Source: Flavobacterium gyeonganense
Lineage (GTDB): Bacteria > Bacteroidota > Bacteroidia > Flavobacteriales > Flavobacteriaceae
Length of the DNA: 64,000 nt
Reading direction: 5' to 3'
Assembly (NCBI RefSeq): GCF_029625295.1
Contig: NZ_CP121112.1
Location: 3,658,001 to 3,722,000, forward strand
The notes under the pieces are model-generated. The model had not been told where the DNA came from. It saw nothing but the letters and a program-made list of their open reading frames with translations, and did no database searches. A program made the position numbers and the translations under genes. Of the stretch, positions 18,834 to 39,746 are shown piece after piece (position 1 is the first letter of the stretch; the number at the start of each line of letters is the position of its first letter).

Positions 18834-18908
18834 AGCTAATCCTGCTCTCCACTATATCTGTTGTTGCGAACCCCGCAACAACAGGATGCCGTTACGATCA
18901 GGGCTAGG
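18834..18908 (-). repeat. Dispersed hairpin repeat, copy 2
   Basis: A perfect 11-bp inverted repeat (CTGTTGTTGCG at 18858-18868, CGCAACAACAG at 18874-18884, loop AACCC). Read on the minus strand the flanks are CCTAGCCCTGAT...GGCATCC and GATATAGTGG..AGCAGGATTAGCT, matching copy 1 near 1904-1990 in order and spacing while the stem differs. It sits in the 419-base gap between the efflux operon and the ABC transporter; apart from the repeat, the efflux promoter and the ABC terminator, that gap holds nothing recognisable. Confidence 0.7.
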
Positions 18909-18986
18909 TTTTTTGGGATTAAAGAGATTTATTTCCCTGACAGCTTTTTAATTATTATGATATTTGATTTTGTATACCTGCAAAAA

Positions 18987-33403: not shown

Positions 33404-33625
33404 ATCTGACATATATCATATTTTGTATATATAATTCCGAGAATTTCAAATAGTATATGAATTATATGCAATTTGCTGAAAAAAAAATTAAATAAGCAAC
33501 TTGATTGATGCCTTTGCAAGACTGCCCCTACTGTAAAAACTTAAGCTGCTTTCGTTAATGCATATAATATATCACCTTAAGGCTTGCCTTTACTTTGTTT
33601 TAGATAAAAAGCAGTATCTTTTTCA

Positions 33626-33702
33626 AAAGGAAAGCAGAGGTGAACTTTGACGCTCGCCAAGCTTACGACTTATCTGGCGCATTAGTCCTCTGCCATTCCT
33701 TT
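33626..33702 (+). ncRNA. Candidate bridge RNA hairpin of the IS110 element
   Basis: A long hairpin in the 5' non-coding end. AAAGGAA (33626-33632) pairs with TTCCTTT (33696-33702) and GCAGAGG (33634-33640) with CCTCTGC (33687-33693), with a small internal loop between them. Inside, CGCCA (33655-33659) pairs with TGGCG (33675-33679) around a 15-base loop. IS110 elements are known to express a bridge (seek) RNA from this position whose internal loops pair with target and donor DNA. Identity as a bridge RNA is inferred from position and fold. Confidence 0.55.
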
Positions 33703-33797
33703 GATCCTGTTGAATTGCTTCAAATAGAATGACAGACTTGCAGGTCTAATAAAGGCTCTAAAGAAGTTCAACTATTTTAAATCTCTAAATCAAAGTT

Positions 33798-34806
33798 ATG
33801 AAAAAGTATTTGTTTCATGTTGGCATTGATATTTCTAAATTGAAATTGGATGTTGTAGTAATGAATGTTGAGAACTCTCTACAGGTAGAACACTTCATAG
33901 TAGAAAACTCAAAAAAAGGAATTAAGGACATATTCAAGTATTTTATTAAAAGAAAATACAGCTTAAATACTGTTTTGTTCTGTTGTGAGAATACTGGGGT
34001 TTATACTTATCCGTTAAGTATAAGTCTTTCTGAAAACAATTTAGATTATTGGGTAGTTCCCGCTATTGAGATTAAACGCTCCAAGGGAATTGTCAGAGGT
34101 AAGAACGATAAGTCTGATGCTAAAGATATTGCTTTGTACAGCCTTAGAAATATTGATAAATTAAATTTATCTGTAGTTCCTGAAAAAGAAATTCAAATCT
34201 TAAAACTACTTTATACTGAAAGAGAAAAATTGATAAAAGCACGAAGATTATTTGAAGCTTCTTCAGAGGCAGCAGCTTTTATAGATAAAGATGTTTATAA
34301 AACTATCTCATCTACAAATCTTAAAACAATAGCAGCACTTAAAAAAGCACTGAAAGAGATTGAACGAAAACTCAATGAGGTAATTATTGGAAATCAAGAT
34401 TTAAAAGAAAAATTTAATTTAGTAAAAAGTGTTCCCGGCATAGGAAAGCAATCAGCTATATATCTGTTGATTGCCACAAAAGGTTTTACCTCTTTTAAAT
34501 CCTGGAGAAAATTTGCCTGTTACTCTGGCGTCGCTCCTTTTGAATATAGTTCGGGTTCCAGTATTAAAGGAAGGACGAAAGTCAACCATTTTGCAGATAA
34601 AAAAGATGAAATCACTTCTACAGATGTGTGCGCTTACGGCAATTAAATACGATCCACAGCTCAAAGAATACTATAATAAAAAGAAAGAAGAAGGAAAAAA
34701 CACAATGCTGGTTTTGAATAATATAAGATGCAAATTAATAAGCAGAGTGTTCTCCGTAATAAACCGAAAAACACCCTTTATAAATACTTATAAATTTGCA
34801 GGATAA
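33798..34806 (+). pseudogene. IS110-family DEDD transposase, frameshifted
   Basis: The N-terminal RuvC-like domain has the family acids: D11 in VGIDISKLKLDV, E64 in CCENTGVY, and D104/D107/D110 in GKNDKSDAKDIALY. The C-terminal Tnp2 region follows (SVPGIGKQSAIYLL, then VAPFEYSSGSSIKGRTKVNH) and contains the serine-rich catalytic loop. The frame breaks in an A6 run at 34599-34604. Removing one A joins it to MKSLLQMCALTAIKYDPQLK and the end at 34806, giving about 335 residues. As read, the enzyme lacks its last helices. Confidence 0.85.
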
Positions 34807-34811
34807 TTAAT

Positions 34812-35651
34812 CTATTTATATTTGCTTTTTATCATAGAATGCTTTTTGGACGATTCTTTTTTGATTTGTTTCTTTAATTCGTCAAAACGTTCTGTGGCTA
34901 GGCGAAGCAGATTTTGTTCGCTGTTTTCAACTGCCTGATACATTTCGTCTTTATAGATTGCATCACCCTCTGAAGCTGCTTGTTTTGCTTTTTCAAAAAG
35001 AGCTGTCAGGAAATATTGGTTTCGGTTGTTTCGGACGAAGTATTTTTGAATTTCGGGAATGCATGCGGTCAGGTTGCGGATTCTTTCGTCGAGACTTAGG
35101 GTATTGCAAGTGTTTCCGGTATAGAGTTCTTCTAAACATTGGAGGTCGTATTCCAGCAGTCTGGCATAGGAGGTAAAGACACTGTTTGAGGCGCCTTCTG
35201 CCATGAGGTTTTTAATCTGCCATTTCTGAAGTTCGTGATCGTGGTAGAAATTGTTTTGATAGACATTCAATTTCCTCTTGTATTTTTTCCATTCTCCTGT
35301 ACTGAAAACAGCCTCTTCTAATTCTTCATTTTGATAGATCACAGCAGCCGGACGGCAGTAAAACGCAGTGAAAGGTGCTCCTAAAGCATACTGACGATGC
35401 AGTTTTGAAGAATAGACAAAACAGACATTAATCTGATACTGGTTTTTTACTTTGGCGACCCATTTGCTCTGCCGAAGCTCCTGGACAGAGGCGTTTTTTT
35501 CGGTATGGATGATGAGTTGTGAAAACAGGGGTGAAGGTTCCCGGGTAAAAAATATCTGAACGATGGTATGCTGACGGACCAACTGACGCAGGATGTTTGC
35601 TATATATTCGTTTTGGAGTTTTGGAAATAAAAGTTTTGCTGTGGTTTTCAT
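34812..35651 (-). CDS. Unrecognised protein, possibly nucleotidyltransferase/HEPN-like
   Basis: 279 residues, soluble. The first 115 residues have an alternating beta-alpha pattern (IVQIFFTREPSPLFSQLIIH, then YQINVCFVYSSKLH). The rest is helical (LQKWQIKNLMAEGASNSVF, then AVENSEQNLLRLATERFDEL). The layout recalls nucleotidyltransferase-plus-HEPN proteins, but the GS and DxD motifs of active nucleotidyltransferases are not seen, so this is a weak suggestion. It overlaps the upstream gene by 4 bases and ends at the right edge of the IS110 element. Confidence 0.55.
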   Translation of the reverse strand: MKTTAKLLFPKLQNEYIANILRQLVRQHTIVQIFFTREPSPLFSQLIIHTEKNASVQELRQSKWVAKVKNQYQINVCFVYSSKLHRQYALGAPFTAFYCRPAAVIYQNEELEEAVFSTGEWKKYKRKLNVYQNNFYHDHELQKWQIKNLMAEGASNSVFTSYARLLEYDLQCLEELYTGNTCNTLSLDERIRNLTACIPEIQKYFVRNNRNQYFLTALFEKAKQAASEGDAIYKDEMYQAVENSEQNLLRLATERFDELKKQIKKESSKKHSMIKSKYK

Positions 35652-36947: not shown

Positions 36948-39746
36948 TTGAAAAACGAAAGACATACTCGCCAATCAATAATTGATATTCGACTAAAAGA
37001 CGCAGGTTGGAATATCAACGATACTACACAAGTAATTGAAGAATTTAACATTCAAGTTCCTTTACCTGATGGTGTTAATGAGCCTGGAAGCAAATATGAA
37101 GGGCATCAATTTAGCGACTATGTTTTACTAGGAAAAGATGGTAAGCCGTTAGCTGTTGTTGAAGCCAAAAAATCTTTAGTAGATGCAAACATCGGCAAGG
37201 AACAAGCTAAACAATATTGTATCAACATACAAAATGAACGTGGTGGTGAATTACCGTTTTGTTTTGTTACCAATGGACATGATATTTATTTTTGGGATTT
37301 AGGGAATTATCCTCCAAGAAAAGTACACGGGTTTCCAACACGAGATGATCTTGAACGTTACCAATACATTCGAAAAGCCAGAAAACCATTAGCTAGCGAA
37401 TTGATTAATACTTCAATTGCCGGACGAGATTATCAAATTGCCTCTATTCGTGCGGTTATGGAAGCTATTGAGAAACGCAAAAGAAAGTTTTTGTTAGTAA
37501 TGGCTACCGGAACGGGTAAAACCAGAACCTGTATTGCTTTAGTAGATGCTTTAATGCGAGCTGGTTGGGCAGAGCGCGTTTTATTTTTAGTTGATAGAAT
37601 TGCGTTGAGAGATCAAAGTTTAGAGGCATTCAAAGAACACCTTCCAAACGAACCCAGATGGCCTAAGATTGGTGAAAAGTCGATCGCAAAAGATCGAAGA
37701 ATTTACGTTTCGACTTATCCTACTATGTTGAATATCATAAGGGATGAAGAAAATACTTTAAGTCCGCATTTTTTTGATTTGATTGTGGTAGATGAAAGTC
37801 ATCGAAGTATCTACAATACGTATCAAGAAATATTAGATTATTTCAATACAATTACATTAGGACTAACAGCTACACCTACAGACGTAATTGATCATAATAC
37901 GTTTAACCTCTTTGAATGCGAAGATGGCATACCAACATTTGCGTATACTTATGAGGAAGCCGTAAATAATATCCCTCCCTATTTAAGCAACTTTCAGGTG
38001 ATGAAAATTAAGACTAAGTTCTTAGAACAAGGGATAAACAAAAGAACTATTTCTTTAGAAGATCAAAAAGAGTTAATTCTTCAAGGTAAAGAAGTCGCTG
38101 AAATTAATTTTGATGGGAAAGACATTGAAAAATCAGTTACAAACAAGGGAACCAATGCATTGATAATTCGCGAATTCATGGAAGAGTGTATTAAAGATGC
38201 TGATGGTGTGTTACCTGGTAAAACGATTTTCTTCTGTTCGAGTATGAAACATGCGCGTCGTATGGAAGAATTATTCGATGCTTTTTATCCCGAATATCAT
38301 GGTGAATTAGCTAAAGTATTGGTAAGTGACGATCCAAGAGTTTATGGTAAAGGAGGATTATTAGATCAATTCACACATAATAATTTACCACGTATAGCAA
38401 TTAGTGTCGATATGTTGGATACAGGAATTGATGTACGAGAATTGGTTAATTTAGTTTTTGCAAAACCTGTTTTTTCCTATACCAAATTTTGGCAAATGAT
38501 AGGTCGTGGTACACGTTTATTAGAACCATCAAAAATGAAACCTTGGTGTACTCAAAAAGATAATTTTCTCATTATGGATTGTTGGGATAATTTCGAATAT
38601 TTCAAAATCAATCCGAAAGGAAAAGAATTAAAAAACCAAATTCCTTTACCAGTTCGTTTGTTTGGTATTCGATTGGATAAAATTGAAAAAGCCCAAGAAC
38701 TACAAAATAAAACTATTGAAACAAGTGAGGTAGAAAAATTACGAAAACAAATAGCCTTATTACCTCAAAATTCGATAGTAATTCTTGATGCGCAAGCCGA
38801 ATTAGAGCGATTAAAAGACGATAATTTTTGGAATCTGCTAACACACGATAAACTCGATTTTTTACGCTTAGTTATAAAACCGTTATTACGAACGGTTTCT
38901 GATGTTGATTTCAAAGCGATGCGTTTTGAAAAAGACATATTAGAAGTTTCCTTAGCGCATTTGTGCGAAGAAAAAGAAAAATTTGAAGCCTTAAAAGATA
39001 GTATCGTTGAAGAAATTAGCGAATTACCTTTAACAGTAAGTGCCGTAGCTAAAGAAGCCGAGTTGATACGTAAAGCGCAAACCAATAACTATTGGGCAAC
39101 TATTAACGAAGATCGTTTCGATGAATTAATCCTAAAAATGGCTCCTTTAATGCGTTTTAGAGAGACGGTGAAACCGCTAGGAACTGCCAAATACAATTTT
39201 AAAGATGAAGTATATACCAAAGAATTTGTTGAATTTGGTCCACAACACGAGGCTTTGAGTGTAGCAAAATACCGTGAGTTAGTAGAAGAAACGGTGAATC
39301 AGTTAGTACAGGACAATCCTATTTTACAGAAGTTGAAACAAGGACATGAAATTACACTTGAAGAAACGGAAAGTTTGGCCCAAGTCCTGCACGATGAACA
39401 TCCTCATATTACAGTAGATTTGTTACGCCGGGTGTATGCGCACCGAAAAGCACAATTGGTGCAATTTATTAAACACATTTTAGGTATCCAGTCTTTAGAA
39501 TCTTTTCCTGAAACAGTTTCAAAGGCATTTACTGAATTTATAAAAGAACACTCTTATCTGACAGCTAGACAGTTGCAGTTTTTAGATTTACTTAAAAAAT
39601 ATATCATAGAAAAAGGAGAACTTAGCAAACGAAATTTGATTGAATCACCCTTTACCATGTTACATCCTGAAGGTATCCGTGGTGTGTTCAAACCCAATGA
39701 AATAGAAGAAATTATTACTCTTACAAATAAATTATTAGCTGCATAG
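36948..39746 (+). CDS. hsdR: Type I restriction enzyme, R (motor and nuclease) subunit
   Basis: 932 residues, read from TTG at 36948. An in-frame stop lies one codon upstream and no ATG precedes the conserved start KNERHTRQSIIDIRLKDAGW, so TTG is the likely initiator. The PD-(D/E)xK nuclease core has E72-A-K74 in VVEAKKS. The SF2 translocase has Walker A ATGTGKT (186-192), DESH (282-285), LGLTATPTD and a C-terminal helicase half (IGRGTRLLEP). The C-terminal region binds the methylase core. It translocates and cuts DNA lacking the host methylation. First gene of the defence run. Confidence 0.93.
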   Translation: MKNERHTRQSIIDIRLKDAGWNINDTTQVIEEFNIQVPLPDGVNEPGSKYEGHQFSDYVLLGKDGKPLAVVEAKKSLVDANIGKEQAKQYCINIQNERGGELPFCFVTNGHDIYFWDLGNYPPRKVHGFPTRDDLERYQYIRKARKPLASELINTSIAGRDYQIASIRAVMEAIEKRKRKFLLVMATGTGKTRTCIALVDALMRAGWAERVLFLVDRIALRDQSLEAFKEHLPNEPRWPKIGEKSIAKDRRIYVSTYPTMLNIIRDEENTLSPHFFDLIVVDESHRSIYNTYQEILDYFNTITLGLTATPTDVIDHNTFNLFECEDGIPTFAYTYEEAVNNIPPYLSNFQVMKIKTKFLEQGINKRTISLEDQKELILQGKEVAEINFDGKDIEKSVTNKGTNALIIREFMEECIKDADGVLPGKTIFFCSSMKHARRMEELFDAFYPEYHGELAKVLVSDDPRVYGKGGLLDQFTHNNLPRIAISVDMLDTGIDVRELVNLVFAKPVFSYTKFWQMIGRGTRLLEPSKMKPWCTQKDNFLIMDCWDNFEYFKINPKGKELKNQIPLPVRLFGIRLDKIEKAQELQNKTIETSEVEKLRKQIALLPQNSIVILDAQAELERLKDDNFWNLLTHDKLDFLRLVIKPLLRTVSDVDFKAMRFEKDILEVSLAHLCEEKEKFEALKDSIVEEISELPLTVSAVAKEAELIRKAQTNNYWATINEDRFDELILKMAPLMRFRETVKPLGTAKYNFKDEVYTKEFVEFGPQHEALSVAKYRELVEETVNQLVQDNPILQKLKQGHEITLEETESLAQVLHDEHPHITVDLLRRVYAHRKAQLVQFIKHILGIQSLESFPETVSKAFTEFIKEHSYLTARQLQFLDLLKKYIIEKGELSKRNLIESPFTMLHPEGIRGVFKPNEIEEIITLTNKLLAA

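Follow-up and report, generated by a model that had tools for sequence, protein, structure and literature searches.

A predicted bridge RNA encoded by the left end of a Flavobacterium IS110-group element, with guides that follow insertion sites among its relatives

Among described systems, the closest to the locus studied here is IS621, in which the left end of the element encodes an RNA with a 5′ stem-loop, a target loop and a donor loop (PMC11208160, PMC11208158); its left and right guides pair with the bottom and the top strand, respectively, the core included, its promoter is rebuilt where the ends join, and it is known to target REPs (PMC11208160). The seekRNA of IS1111 is similar in that a non-coding RNA of the element picks the target, but there the RNA lies downstream of the gene and is accompanied by subterminal inverted repeats (PMC11187229), whereas here it lies upstream and the right end measures about 36 nt. 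According to the predictions of Durrant et al. (PMC11208160), the majority of catalogued IS110 elements have a bridge RNA, and finding one here was therefore expected; our literature search found no paper on bridge RNAs of Bacteroidota.

The window, a 64,000-nucleotide stretch of the Flavobacterium gyeonganense genome, had been the subject of an earlier note that proposed a candidate bridge RNA in front of an IS110 transposase. Our analyses uphold that reading through the covariation of its helices, element ends that enclose the hairpin, donor guides complementary to those ends and, in relatives, agreement between target guides and flanks. We put at roughly 0.92 the probability that the left non-coding end encodes a bridge RNA pairing with the donor junction and a genomic target and steering the recombinase to exchange strands at GC. 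The locus is like IS621 in the placement and plan of the RNA, the strand polarity of guides and core, the DEDD and serine residues and the REP-like targets; it differs in that the core is GC and not CT, the sequences are unrelated, the targets are Flavobacterium palindromes, and the sigma-70 promoter of IS621 is replaced by a possible junction promoter of Bacteroidota type. The recombinase of ISCro4 (9t56) is also of IS110 type and like the window protein, though distant in sequence, a likeness that concerns the protein alone.

The element is delimited by the following features:

33586..33587, + strand: left core dinucleotide GC, the element proper being 33588-34842; relatives are conserved from here and the DNA leftward is unrelated
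33798..34806, + strand: IS110 recombinase gene with one additional A (+1) in the A-run 34599-34604, from Pfam and the reading of relatives
34834..34842, + strand: right end, consisting of the left-donor sequence ATAGAATG and the core GC (34841-34842), kept in relatives

Scanned with the window protein, the species genome collection yielded just one relative, and relatives were then gathered through genome searches. A named relative is Flavobacterium amniphilum (L002); the searches across the genus found close relatives in more than a dozen genomes, and a related element is also present on a Chryseobacterium plasmid (L072). When the left and right flanks of relatives are aligned, conservation begins at GCCTTTACTTTG and stops at ATAGAATGC, the DNA beyond being unrelated, and in one genome (G749) five dispersed copies break at identical bases; these limits and breakpoints together define the core as GC. 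With its ends read from relatives, the window element spans the core copies at 33586-33587 and 34841-34842, is about 1.25 kb in size and occurs once in the 5.1-Mb host genome. It begins at the core and not at 33560, where the candidate had been thought to start, and its ends do not exclude the hairpin, an outcome that would have spoken against a bridge RNA, but enclose it. The distances of 210 nt from core to ATG and 36 nt from stop to right end make a long left end and a short right end; judged by this sequence layout (PMC11208160), the element is of the IS110 group and not of IS1111, in which the guide RNA sits in the right end, here too short to hold it. Left-end-only matches in four genomes (G004, G007, G030 and G008) are decayed fragments without the donor loop; L037, L038, L042 and L045 are isolated, decayed left ends of this kind of element that lack the donor loop, the left guide still being readable in L037; a further decayed copy, L025, has in-frame stops and foreign DNA as its left half and retains the donor loop.

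The ATG at 33798, previously proposed as the start of the transposase, is correct, but the reading frame is shifted at about 34600: the window ORF ends at 34646 and the remaining frame runs on, shifted, to 34806. The protein matches DEDD_Tnp_IS110 (E 1.3e-18) and Transposase_20 (E 1.4e-12) in Pfam, as expected of the IS110 group, its nearest solved structures are the recombinases of IS621 (8wt6, E 1.7e-16) and ISCro4 (E 1.3e-15), and D11, E64, D104, D107 and S252 align with the DEDD and serine residues of IS621. As the +1 frameshift falls after S252, the catalytic residues are kept and the frame is lost for the last ~66 residues. In relatives, the region of the A-run is read without a shift, as ADKKMKSLLQ, and we treat the extra A as a mutation or a sequencing error. 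We rejected the idea that the A-run directs a programmed frameshift, since a −1 shift would hit a stop almost immediately and relatives need no shift.

The predicted bridge RNA extends over approximately 33602-33772 and has the three-part architecture of bridge RNAs:

33602..33624, + strand: weak 5′ stem-loop, from the alignment, with 80% of cells paired
33624..33704, + strand: target-binding stem-loop, the hairpin already recognized, from the fold (z −3.23) and covariation
33709..33772, + strand: donor-binding stem-loop, with outer stem GTTGAATTGCTTC/GAAGTTCAAC and inner stem AGAC/GTCT, from the alignment and covariation

The outer stem of the target-binding hairpin, in which AAAGGAAAGCAGAGG (33626-33640) pairs with CCTCTGCCATTCCTTT (33687-33702), lies where the earlier note located it. 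The inner stem described there, CGCCA (33655-33659) with TGGCG (33675-33679), can indeed pair but is peculiar to the window copy; in relatives, these positions hold the target guides and the core, and the counterpart of their conserved apical hairpin is AAG 33659-33661 and CTT 33669-33671. What had been described as a hairpin followed by non-coding DNA up to the ATG is a hairpin followed by a second, donor-binding stem-loop that had been missed. The hairpin at 33624-33704 folds with −26 kcal/mol and is beaten by only one of 200 dinucleotide shuffles, but the entire 238-nt stretch folds unremarkably (z −1.31), and folding energy is thus weak evidence that calls for comparison. An Rfam scan gave no bridge-RNA-like match here, reporting only Flavo-1 and tRNA; the two Flavo-1 RNAs (RF01705) lie at 1906-1987 on the + strand (80.6 bits) and at 18834-18909 on the − strand (65 bits).

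The comparison with related IS110 copies, suggested as the check on the hairpin, shows that the outer stem is conserved and that the helices covary, most clearly in a distant subfamily whose recombinase shares ~33-40% identity across the aligned portion. As a joint alignment had the stems out of register, each subfamily was counted separately. Among 15 close sequences, 94.5% of cells are standard pairs, and seven pairs show two-sided changes, where shuffles give 3.4 and slid structures 0 to 5. In the distant subfamily (n=11), which follows the same plan, 20 pairs show two-sided changes, compared with 8.6 when shuffled and 3 to 10 when slid; the target-loop stem, with its 13 pairs, accounts for 10 of them. 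The structures were drawn from the same sequences as were scored, which biases the scores in their favour over slid versions, and the two-sided changes are thus the firmer evidence. The inner stem of the donor loop changes from C-G to U-A among relatives; a large part of the donor stem is uninformative, as the close relatives are too alike and the stem is invariant, and its outer stem is paired less well (69%) in the distant subfamily.

The loops can be compared with the element's own ends and with the sites at which it is inserted. The features concerning the ends are the following:

33724..33731, + strand: left donor guide ATAGAATG, identical to the right end 34834-34841
33750..33756, + strand: right donor guide TAAAGGC, reverse complement of the left end GCCTTTA 33586-33592
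33591..33597, + strand: TACTTTG, a possible −7 promoter box, from the sequence and the Flavobacterium −7 boxes in PMC9723704

The donor guides are thus complementary to the joined ends, core included, in the same arrangement as those of IS621. Joining the ends also brings TTG (34822-34824 of the right end) before TACTTTG, giving TTG-N21-TACTTTG, and these could form a promoter. An upstream TTG box is a feature of Flavobacterium promoters. The −7 box of Flavobacterium sigma-A promoters is TAnnTTTG, with TAnnTTGY as one variant class (PMC9723704).

The target guides, their register set by relatives, are placed as follows:

33649..33657, + strand: left target guide GACGCTC with core GC
33672..33680, + strand: right target guide ATCTGGC with core GC, read as the reverse complement GC-GCCAGAT

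For 14 independent elements, seven guide bases were set against seven bases of the flank, on the left and on the right. The mean agreement of left guides is 6.14 of 7 bases with their own flank and 3.64 with the flanks of other elements, the better of two registers being taken for own and foreign flanks alike; the corresponding means for right guides are 4.86 and 2.53. None of 200,000 permutations reaches the observed own-flank match on either side. In a set of 13 more distantly related elements, left guides agree with their own flank at 5.15 of 6 bases against 2.85 for foreign flanks, with the best of six offsets allowed for both, and again 0/200,000 permutations do as well. Both guides of L010 (AGACTTC|GC|TCAGCAT) match at 7/7; in L056 (CACCCGA|GC|GATAG), the left guide matches at 7/7 and the right at 5/7. 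The proposal that loop bases should match the insertion site therefore holds for relatives and fails for the window copy itself, whose left guide agrees with its flank at 4/7 and right guide at 0/7.

Given its frameshifted recombinase, guides that do not fit the flanks and a right end at a broken gene, the window copy is probably an inactive, dead descendant. The broken gene (34812-35651, − strand) is the N-terminal half of a gene of unknown family that runs to ~545 codons in relatives (L086, at 93% identity); it is cut at codon 273, which the element's right end adjoins, and the last codons of the ORF come from that end. Its second half is absent from the whole host genome, which makes the right junction a rearrangement boundary; that the boundary falls exactly at the core is the one odd feature. 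We found no empty site of the window copy: of the 21 genomes with homologues of the right flank, none has the left flank (one 26-bp match). Near the element and the broken gene, a type I restriction enzyme R-like protein (ResIII, EcoEI_R_C) is encoded at 36948-39746 (+ strand). It is possible, if unlikely, that the copy is intact, the frameshift being a sequencing error and the poor flank match an ordinary off-target insertion: a single A in a short A-run is a common error, the catalytic residues are kept and both core copies are present. However, with no guide base matching on the right and half of the neighbouring gene lost, a simple insertion fails to explain the locus. We consider it rather doubtful that the copy arrived via a deletion or exchange made by the recombinase at a mismatched site; if it did, natural IS110 copies might make end-precise rearrangements that scarcely depend on the guide.

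The nature of the left end itself could also be questioned. Directly 5′ of the gene and strongly conserved, it might serve the recombinase as a DNA binding site, or regulate translation of the gene as a 5′ UTR, and be no guide RNA at all; we regard this as very improbable, because its least conserved stretches are exactly those that track the flanks from element to element, the two-sided helix changes and the donor guides matching the element ends oppose it, and nothing would lead a 5′ UTR to resemble an insertion site. Still less probable is that guides and flanks agree through shared ancestry, the elements having been inherited with their flanks: several relatives do have similar guides and similar palindromic targets, but flanks past the guide-length stretch are unrelated between elements, the distinct target types GACTTC, AAATCC, ACCCGA and GACTCG are each paired with their own guide, and permutations that preserve shared composition never attain the observed match.

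Under the bridge-RNA reading, the excised circle would have ATAGAAT-GC-CTTTACTTTG where its ends meet, the donor loop would pair with this junction and the target loop with both sides of the target around the GC core, and the RNA-held DEDD/serine recombinase would exchange strands at GC; transcription from the circle junction, binding of the recombinase and the chemistry of strand exchange are what we infer by analogy with IS621. The analysis extends guide-verified predictions of bridge RNAs into Flavobacterium and related Bacteroidota, the Chryseobacterium plasmid included, with a GC core; it adds natural targets of several different types used by close relatives, and landing sites that are dispersed palindromes. 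The diversity that a Bacteroidota origin was expected to bring is a real but modest gain. Closely related recombinases that carry different guides offer natural material on which retargeting can be tested, and Bacteroidota elements might function where IS621 fails.

The elements often sit at dispersed, REP-like palindromes that have a GC core. In several cases the target is the 3′ arm, as with the palindromes GAAGTC-GGGA-GACTTC for L010 and GGATT-GCA-AATCC for L068; about half of the flanks have no palindrome at the stringency used. The motif of L010 occurs 23 times in its genome (G175) with at most one mismatch, compared with 0 for the reversed control, and one of the copies ends at the core of the L010 element. 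The target in G749 is found uninterrupted in other genomes, with an exact copy in the window's own. There, the best site for the window guides, G000:C1:5005696, has two mismatches in 16 bases, lies outside long ORFs and is the 3′ arm of a palindrome, GAGCG-TGA-CGCTC; as a target of these guides it is suggestive, though insignificant by count alone. The palindrome forms a cluster at G000:C1:5005696-5005778, which is perhaps what the window element naturally targets. Dispersed palindromic repeats are seen in G000, G175 and G235, and some Flavobacterium palindrome copies lie in opposite orientation within ~100 bases, resembling paired REPs.
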